DNA of 51,651 bases from a virus. Shown in pieces: positions 2,327 to 51,411 of this stretch. The position numbers and the translations under genes were made by a program. The DNA is taken from positions 1 to 51,651 of IMG/VR virus record IMGVR_UViG_3300046491_000457; one strand, given 5' to 3'. Every line of letters begins with the position of its first letter. Position 1 is the stretch's first letter. The notes beneath the pieces were generated by a model that worked only from the letters and a program-made list of their open reading frames with translations, had not been told where the DNA came from and did no database searches.

Positions 2327-3613
2327 ATGCTTAAGGAAGTACCGAAGCCGGAAGCCCCTGCGGCCAAACTCAGCCTTCAGGAAACGCTTCATAAGATTAG
2401 GCCCGATATTGATCTTGAAACCGTTATCGGCCTGATCATTGATGAGGCAAGCTACTACAGGGATAACAAGGATGTGCAGCGGGCCGGTGCTCGGGCTGTC
2501 AATCATTACTATAAGTTTGGCGAGAAAGAGAAGCGCAAGTTCACCTTGCCTCGCCTGGGGTTCACCCGAACCCTGACGCCAAGCGTCGTCACGCGCGGTC
2601 GGACGCTGTATTACACAACCGCAACCAGCGACAACGCATCGTGGCTGTATCGCTGCGTCTTCCCCTTCAAAACCGATGGGGTCCAGAGCAATGACATTTT
2701 CATGTCAGGCACAAACCTGCTGAGCACCATTCTTATTGCGGTCTTCTCTTCGAAGAAGATTGTCATGATGCGGCCAATTTACACGCCAACAACGGTGTAT
2801 CTGATCCAGCTGTGCCGGCGGATAGGCGTTCACGTCCAGTTCGATTACGACGACCTGCTGCTGCCTGAGTTTGCAAGGCAGAGAGGAGCTTGCCGCTCTG
2901 GCCTGCGCGGGCACAAAGAGGATTTCAGCGAATCGCTGAAGCAATCTTCACTCGCTTCGCATGCCGAATCCTTCACATGCTCCACAGAGGCTATTGCCGC
3001 CGAGCTCAGGAAAATAAACCCGAATGTGGAAGTGCGGAAAAACAAACTTCCGGTTTCCATGTTCGAGGATCAGATTGAGATGCTCGCCAGGGTGAAGTCA
3101 AAAACCCCTGAGCATCGGAAGCTGAGAATCCTCTATTTGTCTGGCAGCAACACCCACAAGCGCGACTTCTCGACCATCATGGGTCCGCTGGTCAGGATCG
3201 CTCAGGAATATCCTGACCGGTTCTCCCTGACATTCATGGGTAGCCTGTCGGATTACTCCGGCCTGTTTCGCACGTTAGGTGTCCAGTCCGACGTCAAGCC
3301 TTCGGTGGATTTTTCGGAAATGCTCAAGATAATTCGAGAGCACGATGTTGTTCTCGTGCCTCTGGAGTTCAGTGTTTTCAACCACTGCAAGTCAAACATC
3401 AAGTACGTAGAGAGTGCATGCCAGGGCGTTCCGGTGATTGCAAGCTCGGTGGCCGAGTTCGCTTCCTCCATAAAAAACGGAGTGAACGGCTGGCTTTGTG
3501 ATGATGAGCATCAGTGGTATGACACCCTGAAAAAGGTAGTCCTAAAGCCGAGGTTGACGGTTGACTGTGGTGTCAGGGCGTTCGCGCACGCAAAAGCGGA
3601 GTACAGCGTATGA
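2327..3613 (+). CDS. GT4-like glycosyltransferase, probable lysogenic-conversion gene
   Basis: A 428-residue GT-B-fold glycosyltransferase. The acceptor half includes FDYDDLLLPEF (about 172-182), typical of polysaccharide glycosyltransferases. The donor-binding half starts near YLSGSNTHKRDF (270-281) and ends with SNIKYVESACQGVPVIAS (356-373) and NGVNGWL (384-390), the usual nucleotide-sugar region. There is no signal peptide or transmembrane segment, so it should act on the cytoplasmic face. An AGGAG stands seven bases before the ATG. It overlaps the next gene by ATGA, so the two are translationally coupled. It sits outside the late operon, is transcribed against it, and looks more AT-rich than its neighbours. 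These are moron traits. Modification of O-antigen or another surface glycan is inference. Confidence 0.8.
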   Translation: MLKEVPKPEAPAAKLSLQETLHKIRPDIDLETVIGLIIDEASYYRDNKDVQRAGARAVNHYYKFGEKEKRKFTLPRLGFTRTLTPSVVTRGRTLYYTTATSDNASWLYRCVFPFKTDGVQSNDIFMSGTNLLSTILIAVFSSKKIVMMRPIYTPTTVYLIQLCRRIGVHVQFDYDDLLLPEFARQRGACRSGLRGHKEDFSESLKQSSLASHAESFTCSTEAIAAELRKINPNVEVRKNKLPVSMFEDQIEMLARVKSKTPEHRKLRILYLSGSNTHKRDFSTIMGPLVRIAQEYPDRFSLTFMGSLSDYSGLFRTLGVQSDVKPSVDFSEMLKIIREHDVVLVPLEFSVFNHCKSNIKYVESACQGVPVIASSVAEFASSIKNGVNGWLCDDEHQWYDTLKKVVLKPRLTVDCGVRAFAHAKAEYSV

Positions 3614-8218: not shown

Positions 8219-9832
8219 TTATGAAAGCCAGTTGCTGGAGAAGAAGTCGCCGCCACCAGAAATGAGCATGTCGGCTACGGCGTCGAAGATCGTGTCGATC
8301 TGATCATCGTGGTCGTGGGTGTCGTCGGCGGTGAACGCGGATGCTTCGGTGAGGAACGTCGGAACCCAGTCCGTGGGGGCAATGGCCACGCCCCGGTGAT
8401 CCTTCACCTGGTCGATCTTGTTGCCGTGCTCGTCGTAGATGGCGGGCACGAAGACCCGACCAGACTTAAACCACGGCACGGCATCCATGCAGCGCACTAC
8501 TTTGTTGCTGGCGGGGCCGCGCGGCTGGGGTTGAATCTGGATCGATCCCTTTTTGCTGATCGTCTGAATCAGGCCGGTGCCGCTCGACTTGTCCTCGACT
8601 CGCATGTAGCGAAGGGTTGCTGGTCGGAAGTTGTCCCAAGGCTGCCAGCGCTGCCAGACCTTGAGCGCTTCGGTCTCCAGATCACCCGCATCCCATTTGC
8701 CGCGAACAATCTCGATGATGTAAAGGTTGCCATCTATGCCCAGGCCGCAGTGACTGAACACCGAGAAGTCGTGCTGCTCGTCGGTCTTTTGAGCGGTGTC
8801 GACATACACGCCGCGCCAAACAAGAAATGGCAACTGCTCGTAGGTCGGGAACCAGTCGGCATCGATCATGCCGCCAGTCAAGGCGATGGGTGACTGCTGG
8901 TACTGGCTGACCAGTGTGTAGGCATCACGGTCCCACAGCGCCATCAAGTCAAATACCGATTCCTTTGCAGGCCAGTACGACCAGTATTCAACGCCGCCTC
9001 GGACTACTGAGGGCCCGCTGAATACGTCGCGCTCGGCGTGCTCACGGATCTCGCGCGGTAAGCCTTCGATGTACTCGCGCGTCACCAAGGCTGGAACCTT
9101 GATGTGCGAGAAATCGAGGCCCATGCCGCCGGCGAGCAGGAAGCCAGATACGTCATCGGTGTGCAGCCGCTGCTGAGTGCATATAACCGGGGTGTCAGGT
9201 GACGCACGCCGACTGCGTAGCGTGTTGACCACGATCCGCTGAGCTTTGGCGCGCATGGTCGCGCTGAATGCGCTGTCGGCTTTTTCCGGATCATCGAGGT
9301 TGATGAATCCGCTGAAGCCTTCCGAGATGTACCCGCCCCGGACGCCAGTGATCTGTCCGCCAGTTGAGCGGCTGAAGATCTGATGCTTGTTGCGCCCGTT
9401 GTCGTCGGTGACGATCCAATTCGCGACGTCAGCTTTCCCCAGAGCGCAGGGCCAGAGCTCCTGATATTCAGCGCTGGTGATGATCGACTTGATGCGGTTG
9501 GAGTTTTCTTCGACCAGCGATTTCGAGTAGGAAACGCTCAGATTGCGCGTCCGGTCGAACTTCGTCATCACGTATGCAGGCAGGTGAATTGACCAGTATT
9601 CGGTCTTGGTGCCACCTGGTGGCATGTTGAAGACGACGTTCTTGAGCTTGCCCTGCAGGACCTGCTGGGCGGTGTAATCCATGTAGCGGTGATGCCAGTT
9701 GCACAGAAACTTCATCCCCTGATTGATCTGGAAAAAGACGCGCATGAACGCGAGCGGGGAATGCTCGCTGATCATTTTGGATGCTTCTTTTTCCTCCCGA
9801 CTCATTGTTTCCCAGTCGAGAAGCGCGGTCAT
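8219..9832 (-). CDS. terL: Terminase large subunit
   Basis: A 537-residue packaging motor. The N-terminal ATPase has Walker A PPGGTKTE (71-78, a variant of the usual PPGHGKSE) and Walker B FINLDDP (176-182). The C-terminal RNase H-like nuclease has likely metal ligands D345 (VYVDTA), E413 (MRVED) and D509/D510 (HDHDDQID). It translocates DNA into the prohead through the portal and cuts concatemers. The start overlaps the terS stop by ATGA. The gene lies between tail-fibre and tailspike genes, about 16 kb downstream of the portal gene, instead of next to it. Confidence 0.95.
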   Translation of the reverse strand: MTALLDWETMSREEKEASKMISEHSPLAFMRVFFQINQGMKFLCNWHHRYMDYTAQQVLQGKLKNVVFNMPPGGTKTEYWSIHLPAYVMTKFDRTRNLSVSYSKSLVEENSNRIKSIITSAEYQELWPCALGKADVANWIVTDDNGRNKHQIFSRSTGGQITGVRGGYISEGFSGFINLDDPEKADSAFSATMRAKAQRIVVNTLRSRRASPDTPVICTQQRLHTDDVSGFLLAGGMGLDFSHIKVPALVTREYIEGLPREIREHAERDVFSGPSVVRGGVEYWSYWPAKESVFDLMALWDRDAYTLVSQYQQSPIALTGGMIDADWFPTYEQLPFLVWRGVYVDTAQKTDEQHDFSVFSHCGLGIDGNLYIIEIVRGKWDAGDLETEALKVWQRWQPWDNFRPATLRYMRVEDKSSGTGLIQTISKKGSIQIQPQPRGPASNKVVRCMDAVPWFKSGRVFVPAIYDEHGNKIDQVKDHRGVAIAPTDWVPTFLTEASAFTADDTHDHDDQIDTIFDAVADMLISGGGDFFSSNWLS

Positions 9833-11355: not shown

Positions 11356-12014
11356 CAGGACACATCTCCGGGCAGTGTGAAGTTTGCAAAGTTGTAGATG
11401 CGGTCAGAGGCCTGCTCGATCGCGGCGATGTTTGTCGGCAGGATGAATATCTGGCCGATGCGCGTACCTTGCGGGCGAGGGATGATGTCGAAGTTGTCGA
11501 GCAGGTACTGCGTGGTGTTGTCCAGTTCTGAGGCGATTCCGATGTCGAATGACTTGTCGCCGTTGCTTGCGAGCGCGGTCACCTTGACGCCGATCACGAT
11601 TTCCAGAAGCTGAATGATGCTGTCGCTGGTGCCGTCGCTGACATTACGTGCGATCTTGGCCTTGATCAGTTTCCGGTACAGGTCATTGTTGAGCGGCGCG
11701 TCGACCGCGGCACCATCACCGATGTAAGGAGCGACGTTGTAGTTGGTGTAGCTGTCGTTCCCTGCGTAGCCGAAGACGTCATATGCTGCCCCGCGAAGGA
11801 TCGGCCGAGGGATTCCCACGATACGACCGATCACGTCCAGCTGTTCGCCGGTTACCGTGTCAACGTCATAACTGCCGTAGATCTGGTCGATAGCGGGTTC
11901 CAGGCTATCGTTGGCGACCTGAGGCAGATGCGTCAGCCACTTCAGCATGAGTGGCTTGCCGCGATACTGGTTGATGATCCGCTTCTTCGCCCGCTCGACG
12001 TGGTCCATGTTCAT
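11355..12014 (-). CDS. Baseplate protein, DUF2612
   Basis: A 219-residue protein of the DUF2612 group, found after gpJ-like proteins in contractile-tailed phages and taking the place of P2 gpI. Visible hallmarks are an N-terminal helix-rich part (VERAKKRIINQY, LTHLPQVAND) and the GEQLDVIGRIVGIPRP motif (56-71). It likely links the wedge to the tail fibre. Its ATG overlaps the stop of the gpJ-like gene (ATGA). Confidence 0.82.
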   Translation of the reverse strand: MNMDHVERAKKRIINQYRGKPLMLKWLTHLPQVANDSLEPAIDQIYGSYDVDTVTGEQLDVIGRIVGIPRPILRGAAYDVFGYAGNDSYTNYNVAPYIGDGAAVDAPLNNDLYRKLIKAKIARNVSDGTSDSIIQLLEIVIGVKVTALASNGDKSFDIGIASELDNTTQYLLDNFDIIPRPQGTRIGQIFILPTNIAAIEQASDRIYNFANFTLPGDVS

Positions 12015-13270
12015 AGCGTCACCGTAACGTCGATGTTGTCAGGATCGAAGGTGGCCATCTGCGCGATACCCGGCTGGATAGGCGTTAAGCCCTGGCTTAC
12101 GGCGCTGGTCCCGATCGTCAGGCTGATGATGTAGCTGTCGCCGTACTGCCCAAGGATCTTGTTGACGGGTGTGTACAGTCGGCCTACCGGAACAAGCTCG
12201 CCTATGTCGTAGCCGCCCTGGTTGAATCCGGACACCGATTCGCCGGCAAATAGCGACTTGGTCGAGTCCTCGATGATGGCCGTCCTTAGACGATCCTCGA
12301 TGTCGAAAGGAAGGTTTCCGACCTTTTTGACATTCAAAGCAACGAACACAGGAAGCCCGACAGCGCGCTGGAAGGTCATTGTTTCCACGTTGCCGGTGGT
12401 GGGAGACGTTACCTCGACCTTCACCCCGGTAGCTCCCGGTGGGTCAACCCATGTGTCTGTCTTGGTGCTATAGCGCGGATACATCGGGGTGCCTGGGTTG
12501 TATTTCGCATACATCGCTTTGCCGATGTCTGCATCCGATCCACCGTTCACAATTACCGCGATGGCCGTGTACGGAATCCCGTCTGGATCCGTTGGCGAAT
12601 CACTGTTGTTCTCCAGGATCTTGACGTCGGTGACCCCTGACACGTTGGCGATGCTGGCCAGCATGTTGTCTTTCATGTTGCTGCCAGCCAGCGCTACCGA
12701 GTTGTTTCGGCGCGCCCTGAACTCAACATCGGACTCTGCCGCCTCACCAGGTGTGGCCTCGCCGTTGGTAACAGACGACCAGCCTGGGTAAGGAGTGCCA
12801 ATGATGCTCAGCTCGCCGGCCCCAGCCAGAACTCGGCCAGAGGTCGAACAGGTCGCGAATCCCGTCGCGCTCTGGCTGATGCCGATAACGATGGCTGAGG
12901 TTGTCAGCCACAGCGTGTTGTCGATCTTGCTGCGAATCTGCGAAAGAGCTGGCAAGACCGTCCCGGCAGGGCCTGTGATGGTGATAGGCGCGACCGAATA
13001 GGTAGCGGCGCGAATCTGCACGCCTGAGATTTTCCCGATGTCGCGCAGTGCCTCGCCCGTCGCGCTGTCCGGATCCTTGCTGCGGTAGGCCGCAACCACA
13101 CCCTCGTCCAGGTTCGCCATCAGTTCGGCCTCAATGCCGACCAGCTCCCCATCCGGCGAGTCAGGATCAAGGTTCCAATCCGGATCGATGGCCAGCAGCT
13201 TTTGTTTGAGGGCCGCCAGGTAATCGTTGAGCGATTCGCCAGTGATGCCTTGATCTGTGATTTCAGCCAT
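12011..13270 (-). CDS. gpJ: Baseplate J-like protein
   Basis: A 419-residue baseplate wedge protein of the gpJ/gp47 family. The N-terminus reads GITGESLNDYLAALK, followed by DPDWNLDPDSPDG, a hallmark of this group. The central part has VSGVTDVKILENNSD and the family's typical SPTDPDGIPYTAIAV. It forms the wedge periphery with the gp25-like and DUF2612 products, whose genes flank it with overlaps. Confidence 0.92.
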   Translation of the reverse strand: MAEITDQGITGESLNDYLAALKQKLLAIDPDWNLDPDSPDGELVGIEAELMANLDEGVVAAYRSKDPDSATGEALRDIGKISGVQIRAATYSVAPITITGPAGTVLPALSQIRSKIDNTLWLTTSAIVIGISQSATGFATCSTSGRVLAGAGELSIIGTPYPGWSSVTNGEATPGEAAESDVEFRARRNNSVALAGSNMKDNMLASIANVSGVTDVKILENNSDSPTDPDGIPYTAIAVIVNGGSDADIGKAMYAKYNPGTPMYPRYSTKTDTWVDPPGATGVKVEVTSPTTGNVETMTFQRAVGLPVFVALNVKKVGNLPFDIEDRLRTAIIEDSTKSLFAGESVSGFNQGGYDIGELVPVGRLYTPVNKILGQYGDSYIISLTIGTSAVSQGLTPIQPGIAQMATFDPDNIDVTVTL

Positions 13271-22532: not shown

Positions 22533-23510
22533 TTAGATGCCGTCGACGTAGGCGTGGGACATCGGAACGCGCAGCTCTGTACCAGCAGTGCGCACCACAC
22601 CGGCCGCCTCGAAGCGCAGACCGCCGTGAGACGGGATAGGCGCGTTCAGCGTGTACGGCATTGGCAGGTGGAACTTCGCGAACTGGGCGTTTTTGGTGTA
22701 CGCCATCATCCGGTCAGTACCGCCGACGCCGGCACCTGCCAGCTGCAGGATTGGCTCGAAGGTGATGTTCAGCACCCGTTCCAGGTAGCTGATCAACGTT
22801 TCCGAGGTGTTCGGGATGCGGAATGTGGTCAGTTGCCCGTACTGCTTGAGCGGCAGCAGGATGTGGGTCGGACGGAAGATGCTGTTGGTTTGCACCGAGT
22901 AAACCTGAAGGATCAGGTTGTTCAGCAGGGTCAGCATGTCGCTTGCTGCGGCATCCGGCGTCTCGGCCAGGATCTGAGCGAAGGTCTTGTTCGCACCGCC
23001 CAGCAGAGTGCCGGTAGCGAGAACAGGAACGCCCGGATACTTGATCAGACCGCCAGTTGCCAGTGAGGGCCAGCGCGCATCACCCACCATCGCAACGCGG
23101 TCAAGCCATTGCTCGGTCAGGGTGCGGGTCGCGATCGGCTTCTCAGCCAGGTAGTTGATCGCACCGCCGAAGCCCTGCGCGTTCGCCATTTCCATGGCCT
23201 TGCCGACTTCGATCTGGGTGTAGGTGTAGCCCAGGCCAGCCTGGACCACGTCAACGCCACCGATCTTCGATGCGATCTCAGCCAGCGGGAAGTCGTGGGA
23301 CAGGTCGCCGATTGGAGCAGGCTCACCCTTGTAGTCGAGGACCTTGAAGCCGATCGACTCGATGTAGTCCGGTGCCGAGGTGTCGACATTCAGCACGCGG
23401 GGATACTTGATCTCCGCGTACGGCTGACGCAGCACTTCCTGTTCGATATACGTCAGGTTGCCGATCAGAAAGCCCAGTTGCGCTTGGGCCTGTGCGTCCA
23501 TTGTTCTCAT
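22533..23510 (-). CDS. Major capsid protein (DUF2184)
   Basis: A 325-residue HK97-fold capsid subunit of the DUF2184 family. Features include AQLGFLIGNLTYIEQEVLRQ near the start, VQAGLGYTYTQIEVGKAMEMA around 88-108 and the C-terminal GGLRFEAAGVVRTAGTELRVP. AAGGAG seven bases before the ATG indicates high expression. It follows the protease and decoration genes in the normal head order. Confidence 0.93.
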   Translation of the reverse strand: MRTMDAQAQAQLGFLIGNLTYIEQEVLRQPYAEIKYPRVLNVDTSAPDYIESIGFKVLDYKGEPAPIGDLSHDFPLAEIASKIGGVDVVQAGLGYTYTQIEVGKAMEMANAQGFGGAINYLAEKPIATRTLTEQWLDRVAMVGDARWPSLATGGLIKYPGVPVLATGTLLGGANKTFAQILAETPDAAASDMLTLLNNLILQVYSVQTNSIFRPTHILLPLKQYGQLTTFRIPNTSETLISYLERVLNITFEPILQLAGAGVGGTDRMMAYTKNAQFAKFHLPMPYTLNAPIPSHGGLRFEAAGVVRTAGTELRVPMSHAYVDGI

Positions 23511-25134: not shown

Positions 25135-26091
25135 TTACCCGTTCTTGTCGGGGAAGTAGTTCACGCCGGGGATCATGGAGATGGCGACACAGCGGCAGAG
25201 AGGGTGATGCTTGCCCGGCTTCAGCCCGGTTTGTCCGGCCCACGTTGCACCGACACCGACCTTGTAGACTCCCTCGCCAAAGCCGATGTCCTGGCGGGCT
25301 ATGCCGTAACAGCTGATCTTGGCGTTCGGGTATTTCCCCGCAGGGTTACCAGAAACACGCACGTCGCCGGCGTCTTCTGACTTGTAGTACTCGATCCCCG
25401 CTGCAGCCTGTCGCTTCTCGGTCAGGTCGGCGTTGATCTGTGACATCTGGTCTCGCGCTATCAACTTGGCACGGCGGGCGGTGATGCCTGTCTGCTCCTG
25501 AATCTGCCTGGCTATGACTGATGGGGCAGCGCCGCTCTTCATTCCGCCCAGGACGATCGTTTCCACTTTCTGGAAATACTCGGTCTTGACGGACTTGATC
25601 AGGTTGACGTTTTCAGCGATTGAGGCTTCCAGGTAATCCTGCATGCCTTTGGGCCGCGTGATCAGTTCGAAGTCGATACCGACAGCCCGGTTGATCGAGT
25701 TGCGGAAGTCCTCAGCATTATCGGCCTCGGCTCGACTGATCGTGCTCGCGGCCACCCGCTGAACCTGCGCATCAAACAGCGGCGTGACGAATCGCTGTGA
25801 CACGCTGCGAATCGCCTTCAGGATTTCTTCCGTCCAGCTGCCATCGAGCGTCATGCGGCTGTCAGCGATGTAGTCGGGCTTCAACCGCTTGAGCTCAGGC
25901 TCGACGGCCGCAACCAATTCACCCGCCATTAACCGGACCATCGCTCGAAGCTGCCCACGGTAGAACTGCTCCACATCCTTGCTCGGCAGGACCGGTTTAG
26001 GGGCTCGGGGTTTCCTTGGCCGTTTTTCCATCAGTGCTTTGTTGAGGGCGGTCAGGCTTTGAAGCGGCGTCAGCTTTTTGCGGGCTTCCAT
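25135..26091 (-). CDS. Head morphogenesis protein (Mu F / SPP1 gp7-like)
   Basis: A 318-residue minor head protein. The C-terminal Phage_Mu_F part contains ITARRAKLIARDQMSQINADLT (197-218) and ends with HHPLCRCVAISM, where the CxC and H are conserved. It is thought to bind the portal and help DNA ejection or head assembly. Its start overlaps the portal gene by 22 bp. Confidence 0.92.
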   Translation of the reverse strand: MEARKKLTPLQSLTALNKALMEKRPRKPRAPKPVLPSKDVEQFYRGQLRAMVRLMAGELVAAVEPELKRLKPDYIADSRMTLDGSWTEEILKAIRSVSQRFVTPLFDAQVQRVAASTISRAEADNAEDFRNSINRAVGIDFELITRPKGMQDYLEASIAENVNLIKSVKTEYFQKVETIVLGGMKSGAAPSVIARQIQEQTGITARRAKLIARDQMSQINADLTEKRQAAAGIEYYKSEDAGDVRVSGNPAGKYPNAKISCYGIARQDIGFGEGVYKVGVGATWAGQTGLKPGKHHPLCRCVAISMIPGVNYFPDKNG

Positions 26092-27869
26092 TCTTCACCA
26101 CCAAGGACGATTGATGCCAGTGGTAGAGGGTTGGCGCGGATGGCCTCCAGCTCTTCATCTGTGGGGTCGTACTTGAGGCTCAGATGAGGCAAGAAGGTCG
26201 GATAGCTGTGCACGGCGCCAGAAGCTCCGATCTCGTTGAAACGAGCTTGAAGCTCTGGAGAATCCAGCTTAACAACCAACGCACGCCACGGGGCCTGACC
26301 AATAATCTCGTACTCGGTCGTCAGATTGGCTGTGTACAGACCGATTTTCGGTGAGCCTGCTGGAATGCCGTCGCGGGCATAGAACAGGGTCACATGCAGA
26401 TCATCAGCCAGAACGCCACTGCCAATACCAGCGCTCAGCACGTGCTCCGCGATAACGCTGGCAGACAGGCTGTCAGGCTTGACCGAAACGAATCCATTCG
26501 GAGCAGCGTCCGTGGTGGTCTTCCCTCCAAGGTTGAACTCAGGCAAGTCATCCCCGTCATCACCTAATCCTGCGTCCTGGTCCTTCTCTAACTTCTCTTG
26601 CGCGGCGATTTGCTCGTCGGTGATCGCGTAGGTGCCTTTGGCCTGAGCTTTGCGCATCGCATGGCTTGGCTTGATCACACCGTTCTCGATGTACAGCGCA
26701 TCAGCCTGAGCCTCGGCCAGATCCTCCTGAGCCTGCTCGACACCAGAGGTCTGAGCCAGCGGATTCCATTCGAACTCGATGTCGTCCGGGTAGGTGCCCA
26801 GCGCGGAGCGGATCAGCACCTGATCCATAAGCTCGAGGTCCAGCCTCATTTGGCCGTCCTGCTTGCCCTTGATCGTTCCGTGGTAGGTCTTCAGGTCGCC
26901 TTCGCCATTGGCACTCAGTCCGGAGGCTGATTGCCCCCAAAGCTCGGTCACCGGCATCTCGGCAGCGCCTGCCGTCCACACCATGAATTGCTCCATGATC
27001 GAGCTCAGCCCTGAGAACGCGATGCTGTTGCGCTCGTAGGTCTCGCTTTCCTTGTCCAGCAGGCCAAGGTTCACGATGGACTTGAGCATGCCGAACATTC
27101 GGTAGCGCTCGGTCACGTTGTCGCACTGGGCGCTGGCAAGTGCTGCCTTCAAACCACTGACGCTGATCGTGTCGACGTTGGCTTCCAGCACCAGAGAGGC
27201 AATGCCCCCCTTGGTCGCCACCACATCGCGCAGGTCTGACATGCAACGACGCAGACGACTGTCACCCCAACCCTGTTCGAACTGACGCATGCGCCGCGGC
27301 AGGCGAGCACCCGTGCGGCGAATGATGTGGCTGTGATGAATCTTCTGCTGCCCATTCACCATCATGTAGAACTCTGGAAGCATCCAGTTAGGCGCCAGAG
27401 GGTTGGTGAAGTTGAACTCGGTCGGCTGAATGTCCCAGCGGTCGAACACCACCAGGTTCTTCAGCCCGCCCTTTTTGATCTTGTCGAGGTTGAGCGGTTG
27501 GCTCAGGTCCTGTCCGGTCACCATCAGGATCGCAGCACCACCGTACAAGTCAGCCCAGCAGCAGGTATCAAGGTAGGCCTGTTGCACTCCCAAGCGGCGC
27601 TCTTCGTTCGCGATCTCTTTAGCCTGCTTGCCGCTGAATGCCCGCCACTCTCTCAGGGCGTCCTCGTTGGGCTTATCCACGATCCGGCGTGCGAGCCAGT
27701 TCGATTGATACGCCGCTTCCAGCTCATACGGAGTGACGAACTCGAAGCCGAATTGACTGTGTGAGCGCTTGTCCCGGTTGGTGCCAATGTTAGCGACCAT
27801 GTTCGAGAGACTGTCGGTTGTGATGACCGCCCCCGCAGTCACAGAAATTCGCGGTTTATTTGTGGTCAT
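26070..27869 (-). CDS. Portal protein (DUF1073) fused to an Acb1-like 2H phosphoesterase domain
   Basis: A 599-residue protein with two parts. Residues 1-440 are a DUF1073 portal, the dodecameric channel for DNA packaging (FGFEFVTPYELEAAYQSNWLARRIVDKP, MPVTELWGQSASGLSANGEGD). After a linker, residues about 460-599 carry two motifs of the 2H phosphoesterase fold, H492-V-T494 in HVTLFYARDG and H562-L-S564 in FLPHLSLKY. This matches the Acb1 family. Acb1 of T4-like phages degrades cyclic oligonucleotide signals of CBASS defence. Whether the fused domain is active, and whether it is released from the virion protein, is unknown. ATG at 27867-27869. Confidence 0.88.
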   Translation of the reverse strand: MTTNKPRISVTAGAVITTDSLSNMVANIGTNRDKRSHSQFGFEFVTPYELEAAYQSNWLARRIVDKPNEDALREWRAFSGKQAKEIANEERRLGVQQAYLDTCCWADLYGGAAILMVTGQDLSQPLNLDKIKKGGLKNLVVFDRWDIQPTEFNFTNPLAPNWMLPEFYMMVNGQQKIHHSHIIRRTGARLPRRMRQFEQGWGDSRLRRCMSDLRDVVATKGGIASLVLEANVDTISVSGLKAALASAQCDNVTERYRMFGMLKSIVNLGLLDKESETYERNSIAFSGLSSIMEQFMVWTAGAAEMPVTELWGQSASGLSANGEGDLKTYHGTIKGKQDGQMRLDLELMDQVLIRSALGTYPDDIEFEWNPLAQTSGVEQAQEDLAEAQADALYIENGVIKPSHAMRKAQAKGTYAITDEQIAAQEKLEKDQDAGLGDDGDDLPEFNLGGKTTTDAAPNGFVSVKPDSLSASVIAEHVLSAGIGSGVLADDLHVTLFYARDGIPAGSPKIGLYTANLTTEYEIIGQAPWRALVVKLDSPELQARFNEIGASGAVHSYPTFLPHLSLKYDPTDEELEAIRANPLPLASIVLGGEEWKPAKS

Positions 27870-27922: not shown

Positions 27923-28144
27923 TTATTCGTTAACCGGCGGTTCGCGCAGCTTCGATTGCTGGATCACCCTGGACACCGCGACCGCAATGCTGAGCCCCAT
28001 GTTCACGACCGCGAACACCAGTGGATCAACTGCCCCCTGAAACACTGACCACCCCGCCGCTGCCGCATTGAGCACTGCACCGGCCACCGCCAATTGCACA
28101 CTGGTCATTCGCCAGGCCTTACGCCATTCAGGGATGAGTGCCAT
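27923..28144 (-). CDS. Putative holin
   Basis: A 73-residue protein from the ATG at 28142-28144 (a longer in-frame start exists at 28201). It has a short charged start (IPEWRKAWR) and two hydrophobic segments (SVQLAVAGAVLNAAAAGWSVF, about 14-34, and PLVFAVVNMGLSIAVAVSRVI, about 40-60). The end is charged. This fits a small two-helix holin that would permit endolysin release. It lies before the portal gene, 22 kb from the endolysin in the same direction. Its start overlaps the lipoprotein gene. Confidence 0.72.
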   Translation of the reverse strand: MALIPEWRKAWRMTSVQLAVAGAVLNAAAAGWSVFQGAVDPLVFAVVNMGLSIAVAVSRVIQQSKLREPPVNE

Positions 28145-28379
28145 GGTCGATATCCGGGGGCAGTAGTTTTTCAAGGTTCTGGGCGTATCGCTTCCAGTCA
28201 TCCCGGCTCGCTGTCATGCGTCGAAGGTCGGCGTCTCTGGACGCTGACGGCTTAGGGCATTCACTTGGCGCTGACGTGTACCGGTTTACTGTTGTGTGCT
28301 GCACTGGCGGATCAGTCTTAATCACTTCTCTCGGCGCGCAGCCGGCAAGCAAAAACACCACAACCAGTGCGCACCTCAC
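28128..28379 (-). CDS. Small lipoprotein, possible outer-membrane spanin
   Basis: An 83-residue lipoprotein. MRCALVVVFLLAGC ends in a clear lipobox (LAGC), so the mature protein begins CAPREVIKTDPP. The remaining 70 residues are polar with a helical stretch (ADLRRMTASRDDWKRYAQNLEKLL). Size and lipid anchor resemble an o-spanin (Rz1 type). It overlaps a membrane-anchored coiled-coil gene upstream (ATGA) and the holin downstream by 17 bp, which is the arrangement of a lysis cassette. Since Rz/Rz1 are already present at 4.8-5.3 kb, the role is uncertain. Confidence 0.72.
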   Translation of the reverse strand: MRCALVVVFLLAGCAPREVIKTDPPVQHTTVNRYTSAPSECPKPSASRDADLRRMTASRDDWKRYAQNLEKLLPPDIDHGTHP

Positions 28380-45543: not shown

Positions 45544-46827
45544 ATGACATACGAACTACACCTGGGCGACTGCCTCGAGGTGCTGCGCGGCATGCCTGCC
45601 GACTCCATCGACAGCATCGTTACCGACCCGCCATACGGAATCCGCTTCATGGGCAAGAGCTGGGACGGGCAGGACATTGAGGATCGGGCAGCCTACCGAG
45701 CGAGCATGCCATCCCACGCTGGAGCATGCGGCCCGAACGGCGGACACCGCTCCATCGCGGCGGAAGCCGGGAAGTACGACCTGACGCCGACCGGCATGCG
45801 CGCCTTTCAGGCCTTCACCCTCGACTGGGCAACCGAATGTCTGCGAGTACTCAAGCCTGGTGGGCATCTACTTTCGTTCGCTGCCGCCCGTACTTATCAT
45901 CACATGGCGGTGGGCATCGAGATGGCTGGTTTCGAGATCCGCGACCAGATCATGTGGGTATTCGGCAGCGGCTTCCCCAAGTCGCACAACCTGAAGGACG
46001 AGTACTCCGGCTGGGGCACCGCCCTAAAGCCAGCGCATGAGCCGATCTGCATGGCGCGCAAGCCGTTCGCCGGAACGGTTGCAGCCAATGTGGCTGAGCA
46101 TGGTACTGGAGCGATCAACATAGATGCGTGCCGTGTTGAGCCGACTGGTGAAAGCCGACAGCGACTAGGTGAACCGTCAGCTGATCAGCGATATACGGAG
46201 CAAGGTGGCACTAACTTCGCTGCAAAGCCTGGCGTTCGGGGCGGTGATTCCGCCGGTCGCTGGCCAGCGAACTTAATTCACGACGGTAGTGATTTGGTGA
46301 TCGCCATGTTTCCGGAGTCGCAGGGACAGCAGGGGCCTAGCAGGGATAGCTCACGCTCAAAAGCAAACACCTATGGCGAGCCGAGCGACAACGGAAAAGA
46401 GTACGTGCCGCGCGGTGATACTGGTAGCGCAGCCCGCTTCTACTACTGCGCCAAAACAAGCCGCGCCGATCGCCACGAAGGCCTTATCGACCCCGGCCCA
46501 CAATTCAAGCAAGGCACCACCCTGCGCAAGGTCCAGACCACTGACACCAAAGGAAACAACCACCCCACGGTGAAACCCACCGAACTGATGGCCTACCTGC
46601 TCCGCCTTGTCACCCCAATCGGCGGAACGGCTTTGGACCCATTCATGGGCTCTGGCAGCACGGGAAAGGCCGCGATGATCGAGGGCTTCAACTTCATCGG
46701 CATCGAGCAGGACGCAGCGTATATGTCCATCGCCACTGCGCGCATAGCCCACGCCGAGGCAAAGAGTCAGATGCAGCAGGCCGAACAGCAGCTGCAAGAG
46801 CAACAGCTGAGCCTGTTCAGCGCCTGA
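45544..46827 (+). CDS. DNA adenine/cytosine-N4 methyltransferase (beta class)
   Basis: A 427-residue site-specific methyltransferase. Motif IV DPPY is at 28-31 and motif I DPFMGSGSTG at 365-374, an order (IV before I) of the beta class. The target-recognition part lies between them. The end is Gln-rich. No restriction enzyme is coded beside it, so it is an orphan. It probably protects phage DNA from host restriction or alters gene expression. GGAG five bases before the ATG. Confidence 0.93.
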   Translation: MTYELHLGDCLEVLRGMPADSIDSIVTDPPYGIRFMGKSWDGQDIEDRAAYRASMPSHAGACGPNGGHRSIAAEAGKYDLTPTGMRAFQAFTLDWATECLRVLKPGGHLLSFAAARTYHHMAVGIEMAGFEIRDQIMWVFGSGFPKSHNLKDEYSGWGTALKPAHEPICMARKPFAGTVAANVAEHGTGAINIDACRVEPTGESRQRLGEPSADQRYTEQGGTNFAAKPGVRGGDSAGRWPANLIHDGSDLVIAMFPESQGQQGPSRDSSRSKANTYGEPSDNGKEYVPRGDTGSAARFYYCAKTSRADRHEGLIDPGPQFKQGTTLRKVQTTDTKGNNHPTVKPTELMAYLLRLVTPIGGTALDPFMGSGSTGKAAMIEGFNFIGIEQDAAYMSIATARIAHAEAKSQMQQAEQQLQEQQLSLFSA

Positions 46828-47085: not shown

Positions 47086-47501
47086 GCGAGGTAAAGCAAT
47101 ACACGTTCACGGGCGCCGCTGGCGTTTACATCTATCTGGCGGATTATGAGCGCCTGCAGGCCGAGAACGCCGCGCTCCAGCAGCGCTTGAACGTCGCGGA
47201 TCAGCGGATTGATGAGCTCGATGATGCGGCCACAGTCGCGTCGATGCGCATCCGAGAACTTGATTTGACGTTCGGACGCTACCTGCTCGGCATGAAGTCT
47301 GCTGTCATCGCGAATGAGTCAGGTGGCAACGGTATGGAATGGATCTTCAACGGGCTGGCTGGACCGGGCGAGTTACCCCCTGAGGATGAGATCGATGCTC
47401 AAGCGTACTTCGACCGTGAGGTAGAGGCTATCGATGCCGGCCTTGCCGAGGTGTTTGCATTCCATGACGCGCGTCGCAAGGCCATTCAGGTGAAACAATG
47501 A
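47082..47501 (+). CDS. Early phage protein, unknown
   Basis: A 139-residue protein. A short coiled coil (DYERLQAENAALQQRLNVADQRI, 21-43) is followed by a globular part with GNGMEWIFNGLAGPGELPPEDE. The C-terminal half (AYFDREVEAIDAGLAEVFAFHD) is helical. ATGA overlaps with both neighbours. No family recognised. Confidence 0.65.
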   Translation: MSEVKQYTFTGAAGVYIYLADYERLQAENAALQQRLNVADQRIDELDDAATVASMRIRELDLTFGRYLLGMKSAVIANESGGNGMEWIFNGLAGPGELPPEDEIDAQAYFDREVEAIDAGLAEVFAFHDARRKAIQVKQ

Positions 47502-48058
47502 CCCACGAAACCAAACTTCTTCCCTGCCCGTTTTGCGGTGTGCAAGCTGTAGCCACTGATGAAATGTTCGGAAGCGTAATCCACTGTGACCACCTGCATA
47601 CCTGTCCGCTTGATGGTCATGAAAAATTTGCAGCTGCCGTTCATGAGTGGAACACGCGCGCCGCCCCTGCCGAGGATGTCCGCGCAGTGGTGGATGAGCC
47701 GGTTCATATCATTGCTGTAGCGGTCACTCGCGAAGATGACGAAGAAGGTTTGCGGCTTGAATGGCTGCTTGAAGGCGGCATTTCTGAACTCGAGTTCGCA
47801 GGTACAGTGCTCTTCGCCATGCCTGAAGCGAACGACTTGTGCGACGAGGATGGAAGCGCAGAGCTTCGCCGCCGGCCGAAATGTTCGGAGCACCTCCGAA
47901 CACAAGGCAAGCTGCTCCCGCATCACGCACTACTGCCACACCCGCCACGTCACGAAGGCTTCCTTCAGCCAGAGCGCGAAGTGCCCGGCTACACGCTCGA
48001 TCAGATGAAGGAATACGGCGCCCTGTGCGCTGCTGAAGCCTCGCGCCAGAACAAGTAA
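47498..48058 (+). CDS. Lar-like restriction alleviation protein (N-terminal domain)
   Basis: A 186-residue protein. Residues 5-55 form a Lar-type zinc ribbon: KLLPCPFCGVQAV, a second pair of cysteines/histidines (HCDHLHTC), and HEWNTRAA, the standard end of the domain. Lar of the Rac prophage reduces type I restriction of unmodified DNA. The rest of the protein is an unrelated C-terminal part of unknown role. The assignment of restriction alleviation is by domain similarity. Confidence 0.72.
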   Translation: MTHETKLLPCPFCGVQAVATDEMFGSVIHCDHLHTCPLDGHEKFAAAVHEWNTRAAPAEDVRAVVDEPVHIIAVAVTREDDEEGLRLEWLLEGGISELEFAGTVLFAMPEANDLCDEDGSAELRRRPKCSEHLRTQGKLLPHHALLPHPPRHEGFLQPEREVPGYTLDQMKEYGALCAAEASRQNK

Positions 48059-50168: not shown

Positions 50169-51128
50169 TCAGAAACGGTAATTCAGCGCCAGGCTGGACA
50201 ACACCGTTCTGCTCGATTGCCCACCGGATTTGCCGCTGTAGTGGGTGCGCTCGCCACTCTCCAGATCCTTGACCCGCGTGCTGCCGCTGGACTCGCCATA
50301 CATTTGATAATCGACCCCCGCCTTGACCGAGAACTGCGGATGGAAACGGTACGACAGCCCCAGCGCCAGACTTTGCATCCGTCCTCGATTGCCGTTATTG
50401 CCGGTAAATGTCAGGTCACGTAGATGGTGCTGGTCGTAGTCTCTGGCCTTGACCCATTGGCTGTACTTGAAGCGGCTTTCCAGCGTCCAGTTGCGATAGT
50501 TGTAGATGCCCACCAGTCCAACATAGGGTGTTTCGTAGGTTTGGCGGTAGGTGATGCCTTTCAAACCATCAGGGATGGTCCCGGAGATGTCCCGATAGCC
50601 GTCGTCCGAAGAGTAAAGGTAGCTACCGCCCCGGGCCTCCCATTCGAACTGGCTGCGCTGGTAACCCAGCACGACGCCCAGCGCCAGCTCATCGCGCTTC
50701 AGGGCCCATGCCGTCGCTGCAAAATCCGCCTGCCACGCCTGCTTGATTCGCGTATCCGGATGATTGGATCGATGCGTCCAGTCTGCATCGTCGTCAAACC
50801 AGTCGTAGTCTTTCATGTGCCCGTCGCCCTTCGCGACCTGCGTCCAACCGCTTGCGTCCAGCGACAGCCAGTCCAGTGGCTGGTAGCTCAGACCCAGGTG
50901 CAGCGTGGGCACCTGCTTGATGTCCCAGTTCAATTGGCTGATCTTCCTGCCACCTTCGTCGACGTCGTAGACTTTTTCCTGCGACTGGCCGTTCAACAAC
51001 CCGACACCCAGGCTCACTCCCACACTTCCCAGCCGGAACCGCTGTTCATCTGTCGTCTGTGCACGCGCGACCGCTTCCTGCCCGAAAGCAAAGAGCCCAA
51101 GCATCACCAGCGTTTTCCGTCCCTTCAT
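50169..51128 (-). CDS. Omptin-family outer-membrane protease (host)
   Basis: A 319-residue omptin (OmpT/Pla-like) from the ATG at 51126-51128, with GGAG six bases upstream. A longer open frame lacks a better start. The signal peptide is about 22 residues (GLFAFGQEAVARA). The catalytic pairs are conserved: DYDWFDDD corresponds to OmpT D83/D85, and DYDQHH to OmpT D210/H212. The last residues LALNYRF are a beta-barrel end. It is a ten-stranded barrel that cleaves peptides at the cell surface, preferring basic residues in relatives. Confidence 0.92.
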   Translation of the reverse strand: MKGRKTLVMLGLFAFGQEAVARAQTTDEQRFRLGSVGVSLGVGLLNGQSQEKVYDVDEGGRKISQLNWDIKQVPTLHLGLSYQPLDWLSLDASGWTQVAKGDGHMKDYDWFDDDADWTHRSNHPDTRIKQAWQADFAATAWALKRDELALGVVLGYQRSQFEWEARGGSYLYSSDDGYRDISGTIPDGLKGITYRQTYETPYVGLVGIYNYRNWTLESRFKYSQWVKARDYDQHHLRDLTFTGNNGNRGRMQSLALGLSYRFHPQFSVKAGVDYQMYGESSGSTRVKDLESGERTHYSGKSGGQSSRTVLSSLALNYRF

Positions 51129-51411
51129 CGACCACTCCACATCGTTCATTCGAGGATGCGCCGGGCATTTGAATACCTCGGCAAGCGGCGAAAGGATGAA
51201 GCTTGATGAAGGATGTTTCTGCCAGACCACTCCCATTGATACGCGTGAAAACCAGAAGATCGACTGTGGACATGTCCTACAAAGATCAGGTGACGCCACG
51301 ATTGACAATCGATTATCGGGAACAGGCAGCAGAAATCTGTTTGTCCGATTGCCAGGTCAAATCAGCATCCAGACACGCCGCAACCTTGTAGCAATGGCTA
51401 ACCCTGAAGGG
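51129..51411. other. Intergenic region upstream of the omptin gene
   Basis: About 280 bases between two minus-strand genes. It must contain the omptin promoter. I see no clear sigma70 promoter or operator and no RNA gene. Confidence 0.4.

Follow-up and report, generated by a model that had tools for sequence, protein, structure and literature searches.

The window analysed here, a 51,651-nt stretch of viral DNA (IMG/VR record IMGVR_UViG_3300046491_000457), encodes a portal protein whose C-terminal tail was likened in an earlier note to Acb1, the phage enzyme that cleaves the cyclic nucleotide signals of CBASS. The features are collected in Table 1. Both the DUF1073 portal family (PF06381, Phage_portal_3) and Acb1 (PF23474) scored far above their cut-offs within one ORF, which bears out the claimed fusion; the coordinates given for it were correct to within one codon. 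The Acb1 match covered residues 460–580 (E 9e-19, 68.1 bits; overall the domain scored 68–72 bits against a curated cut-off of 27), and the portal tail found Acb1 (7t26) in the PDB from sequence alone (E 8.5e-8). An AlphaFold2 model of the domain, built on an alignment of 68 relatives, had a mean pLDDT of 90.3 and a pTM of 0.84. When this model was compared with the PDB by Foldseek, Acb1 7t26 came first (E 1.7e-8, TM 0.76/0.81); the Acb1 structures 7t26 and 7t27 ranked above the BCSR5 phage phosphodiesterase, which in turn ranked above the 2H enzymes LigT and Usb1. For the full-length portal model, the top structural match was the portal of cyanophage Pam3 (8hds). The two HxT/HxS motifs that had been pointed out are located as claimed and fall on H44/T46 and H113/T115 of T4 Acb1, with a spacing of 70 residues compared to 69 in Acb1. 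The catalytic tetrad is present as HVT...HLS, and the Ser at the last position is shared with 16 of 79 related domains. Paired H-hydrophobic-T/S motifs 60–85 residues apart occurred in just 77 of 20,000 shuffles of the portal tail; the pair is not a product of chance. Residues 458–599 thus form an intact-looking Acb1-family 2H phosphoesterase domain, with a modelled fold closest to that of Acb1.

Table 1. Features of the portal locus, with positions in the window, strand and supporting evidence.
Feature	Position	Strand	Evidence
599-aa portal protein, Acb1-family domain at its C-terminus	26070..27869	−	ORF; Pfam PF06381 and PF23474; PHROG portal phrog_146
Portal core, residues 48–391, Phage_portal_3	26697..27728	−	Pfam E 6.6e-95; full-length model vs Pam3 portal 8hds E 1.3e-23
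Linker, residues 425–457	26499..26597	−	Low-confidence stretch 436–456, pLDDT <50 in full-length model
Acb1-family 2H phosphoesterase domain, residues 458–599	26073..26498	−	Pfam PF23474, AF2 pLDDT, Foldseek, dN/dS
Catalytic motif 1, H492-V-T494	26388..26396	−	Aligned with T4 Acb1 H44/T46
Catalytic motif 2, H562-L-S564	26178..26186	−	Aligned with T4 Acb1 H113/T115
K595 at Acb1 adenine-contact position E141; four residues, then end, no W147 lid	26085..26087	−	Alignment
495-nt insertion/deletion cassette holding the Acb1 domain	26056..26550	−	blastn; 29 nt instead in L008
MuF-like head morphogenesis protein; 22-nt overlap with portal end	25135..26091	−	phrog_324 E 1.8e-55; Phage_Mu_F just under Pfam cut-off

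The domain resembles the known Acb1 enzymes (T4 gp57B and FBB1 Acb1) in its 2H fold and catalytic H-x-T/H-x-[TS], as well as in the aromatic residues F460 and Y556 at the positions of Y12 and F107, and in the nearly invariant E592 at the position of T4 E138. It differs from them in being fused to a portal rather than free, in the Ser that replaces the last Thr, and in its substrate contacts. Acb1 enzymes of the T4/FBB1 type cleave 3'3'-cGAMP and cAAA; E141 contacts adenine and a lid carrying W147 closes over, and substituting nucleotide-contacting residues disrupts the activity of T4 Acb1 (PMC9117128). In our alignment, which is anchored in this region by E592 and the following Pro, the adenine contact is replaced by K595, and Lys is found here in 11 of the 12 readable window-type domains. 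The W147 lid is absent from all 14 window-type domains, the portal ending shortly after K595; this loss is weaker evidence than the change of E141 to Lys, because three of the four free Acb1-like proteins examined also lack the lid Trp. The sphingomonad-type domains kept E141 in 45/55 and W147 in 50/55 cases. Given K595 and the missing lid, cGAMP activity of the domain cannot be assumed.

The loss of the specificity residue and the lid would also suit an enzyme of the same fold acting on another nucleic-acid substrate, namely a 2H enzyme similar to Usb1 or LigT that works as an RNase or in RNA-end processing, on RNA that infection damages or that is synthesised in its course. LigT and Usb1 follow next in the structural comparison, and an RNase role was one option offered by Iyer et al. 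2017 (PMC5512222). We nevertheless regard an RNA substrate as unlikely: 7t26 is far ahead of LigT and Usb1, whose Foldseek E-values were 2e-4 or worse, the Pfam 2'-5' RNA ligase models stayed under their cut-off where Acb1 was well over its own, and there is no evident reason for an RNA-repair gene to ride on a portal. A precedent for a 2H enzyme that is part of a larger viral protein and removes an immune nucleotide signal is the C-terminal 2',5'-phosphodiesterase of rotavirus VP3, the capping enzyme of the core particle (PMC8406329); unlike the activity considered here, it cuts linear 2'-5' oligoadenylate and not cyclic 3'-5' signals, and it is a weak structural match to the window domain.

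When IMG/VR and bacterial genomes were scanned, about 90 distinct Acb1-type domains emerged, nearly all of them C-terminal to portals. Among 80 unique domains (T4 numbering), H44 and T46 were each present in 80/80, H113 in 79/79 and T or S at position 115 in 77/79. The domain is under purifying selection, with dN/dS values of 0.11–0.19 between the more distant pairs including the window, similar to those of the portal core. Most of the portals bearing the domain belong to Phage_portal_3 and the others to Portal_Mu (confirmed for records L078, L082, L103, L134–L136 and L140); the domain has joined two portal families. In the Portal_Mu members inspected, it precedes an extra C-terminal extension of roughly 90–100 residues. 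The 399 sphingomonad-family genomes contained 14 Acb1 domains above the cut-off, and every one was a portal fusion (10 Phage_portal_3, 4 Portal_Mu). Both the occurrence in two portal families and this exclusive association with portals are new. In the domain tree, free Acb1-like proteins fall between the window-type and sphingomonad-type fusions, which is consistent with at least two separate portal fusions; this reading is tentative, given the short alignment and the meeting of long branches. Larger architectures were also seen: L119 (622–3894) encodes a 1091-aa protein composed of Phage_portal_3, the Acb1 domain and about 430 further residues of unknown type, and three Gordonia phage proteins of 880–1100 aa (BFVD A0A9E7E548, A0A0K0N719 and A0A649VPI5), one of them called structural, carry a similar 2H domain.

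SMODS cyclases were present in 3 of the 14 fusion genomes compared to 42 of the 399 overall, with about 1.5 expected. The co-occurrence is not clearly over expectation, and a link of the fusion to CBASS in host genomes was rejected on these counts. An anti-CBASS role would be a plausible one for the portal domain.

The domain is not a fixed part of the portal. Portals that are 95–98% identical to the window portal over residues 1–448 end near residue 470 and lack the domain. Where the closest relative without the domain (L008) has 29 nt, the window carries 495 nt, between flanks that are 95.1% and 93.2% identical. On a portal-core tree of close relatives, in which the truncated record L030 was scored as domain-free, the domain was gained or lost four times, and supported branches force at least three of these changes. 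Relocation of Acb1 to another gene was rejected, as none was found elsewhere in the records of seven domain-free relatives. Between the window and record L002, dS was 0.21 in the portal and 0 in the domain; the cassette region was therefore exchanged recently. Overall, the comparisons describe the domain as an accessory, exchanged element that is retained under selection. A patchy accessory distribution is typical of counter-defence genes. It is new that the domain resides in a cassette of 495 nt, which some phages have and others lack even where their portals are up to 98% identical.

The earlier note had further suggested that the domain could be expressed as a separate piece. Synechococcus phage Yong-M3-232 (L034) is a natural example: owing to a tandem duplication of 127 nt (1464–1590/1591–1717) at the 3' end of its portal, the portal ends early and the whole domain, its catalytic motifs intact, lies in an ORF of its own. 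The suggestion found no support in the window itself: the portal linker has no ATG start, just a weak TTG at codon 442, and an internal start was rejected. The survival of the domain as an ORF of its own bears on the possibility that it is an inert passenger, or adds just bulk or contacts to the portal crown. The existence of domain-free relatives, which makes the domain dispensable for portal function, would agree with a passenger, as would the Mu-type portal of L135 (1240–3228, − strand), in which the first catalytic His has become Tyr (YVT); its close relative L134 retains HVT. We find an inert domain improbable in view of the near-invariant catalytic residues across the 80 domains, the purifying selection and the intact motifs in L034.

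The position of the domain in the particle could be assessed from the Pam3 portal, the only solved virion portal that we found with an Acb1-type domain. This protein (621 residues) carries the domain at 469–619 (profile E 3.6e-38). Just 442 of the 621 residues are modelled in 8hds; these align to the portal core and do not include the domain, and a Foldseek search of the PDB with the window domain model gave no match to 8hds. The Pam3 domain is thus flexible or cut off. Its absence from the model of the virion is a new observation, because of which the domain is probably mobile, on a flexible tether; the linker of the window portal, too, is of very low confidence in the full-length model. The two portals share the fold and the same C-terminal domain; the Pam3 domain differs in that it looks closer to the sphingomonad-type branch, with a Trp kept near its end.

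Portal C-termini generally face the head interior, and the portal stays in the phage particle. The first of these points would suit a domain that acts at the start of infection, either packaged in the head or set free from the portal, and then injected together with the phage genome; the unmodelled Pam3 domain would likewise fit cleavage and release, and packaging with injection has been proposed for MuF- and portal-fused 2H domains (Iyer et al. 2022; PMC9503650). Retention of the portal in the particle argues against this, as does the lack of a separate expression start in the linker, and a domain tethered to a dodecamer could not travel down the tail unless it was cut loose. We consider action by injection improbable. 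The earlier proposal of delivery or release at infection gained no direct support from Pam3, the sole solved example found, with its domain unmodelled.

The reading that we favour, with moderate confidence, is that the portal carries a flexibly tethered, probably active Acb1-family 2H phosphodiesterase, which degrades a host cyclic-oligonucleotide alarm in the cytoplasm during late expression; cytoplasmic action in late infection is more likely than injection. Upon expression of the late operon, portal subunits would be made in the cytoplasm, where the attached domain would use metal-free 2'-OH attack to cleave the alarm signal (that of CBASS or of a related system), and abortive infection would be held off during head assembly. 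The portal would serve as a late-expressed carrier, with a packaging role that is independent of the domain. Since both the adenine contact and the lid are altered in the window-type subclade, its target may be another signal than that of T4 Acb1, or a broader range of signals. The late cluster that includes the portal also contains the MuF-like gene and those for the major capsid protein (22533–23510), baseplate J (12011–13270) and the candidate terminase (8219–9832). A CBASS sensor was reported to interact with a phage prohead protease, a capsid-assembly product that counts among the reported CBASS triggers (PMC12409349), so co-expression of the domain would be timely; on the other hand, late expression might be too late to stop CBASS. 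A bolder version, which we think doubtful, is that portals have been used repeatedly to carry a swappable signal-degrading enzyme that acts late, and that the window-type subclade has shifted to another nucleotide signal, away from the CBASS signals that contain adenine, the change of E141 to Lys and the loss of the lid marking the shift.

A 2H-portal fusion that counters nucleotide signalling is already a published prediction. Iyer et al. described fusions of 2H domains to portal and MuF proteins and suggested RNase or signal-degrading roles (PMC5512222), and later suggested that packaging and injection are directed against SMODS and related signalling (PMC9503650). Those fusions share with the present one the architecture, in which a MuF or portal protein carries a 2H domain, and the proposed role against nucleotide signalling; unlike here, the accessible parts of the two papers do not name Acb1 or treat the window subclade, the presence and absence of the domain or the altered substrate contacts. 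Our literature search, which reached few subscription papers, found no experiment or biochemical data on any portal fusion. If active, the domain would make an essential structural protein double as a counter-defence enzyme, and it could account for the protection of phages that lack an early anti-CBASS gene when capsid-assembly proteins trigger the alarm. The prediction can now be tested directly on natural phage pairs whose portals are up to 98% identical but of which only one member has the domain, and relatives that keep or have lost the adenine contact are available for comparison.

The host of the phage is probably Pseudomonas, since almost every phage record with similar DNA is that of a Pseudomonas phage. 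Terminase_6N and Terminase_3 profile searches of the window gave no match and phrog_2 was uninformative; the idea that a terminase is missing was rejected, as a large-subunit candidate (Terminase_6C, − strand) sits at the distal end of the late cluster, some 16 kb away from the portal. Directly upstream of the portal, a holin gene (27923–28201) is found instead. Near one end of the prophage record there is a gene for an Omptin-family outer-membrane protease (50169–51308, −), and near the integrase end one for a glycosyltransferase (2327–3613, +), which possibly alters the host surface. DNA methylase and Lar-like restriction-alleviation genes (45544–46827, +, and 47498–48058, +) may have anti-restriction functions.
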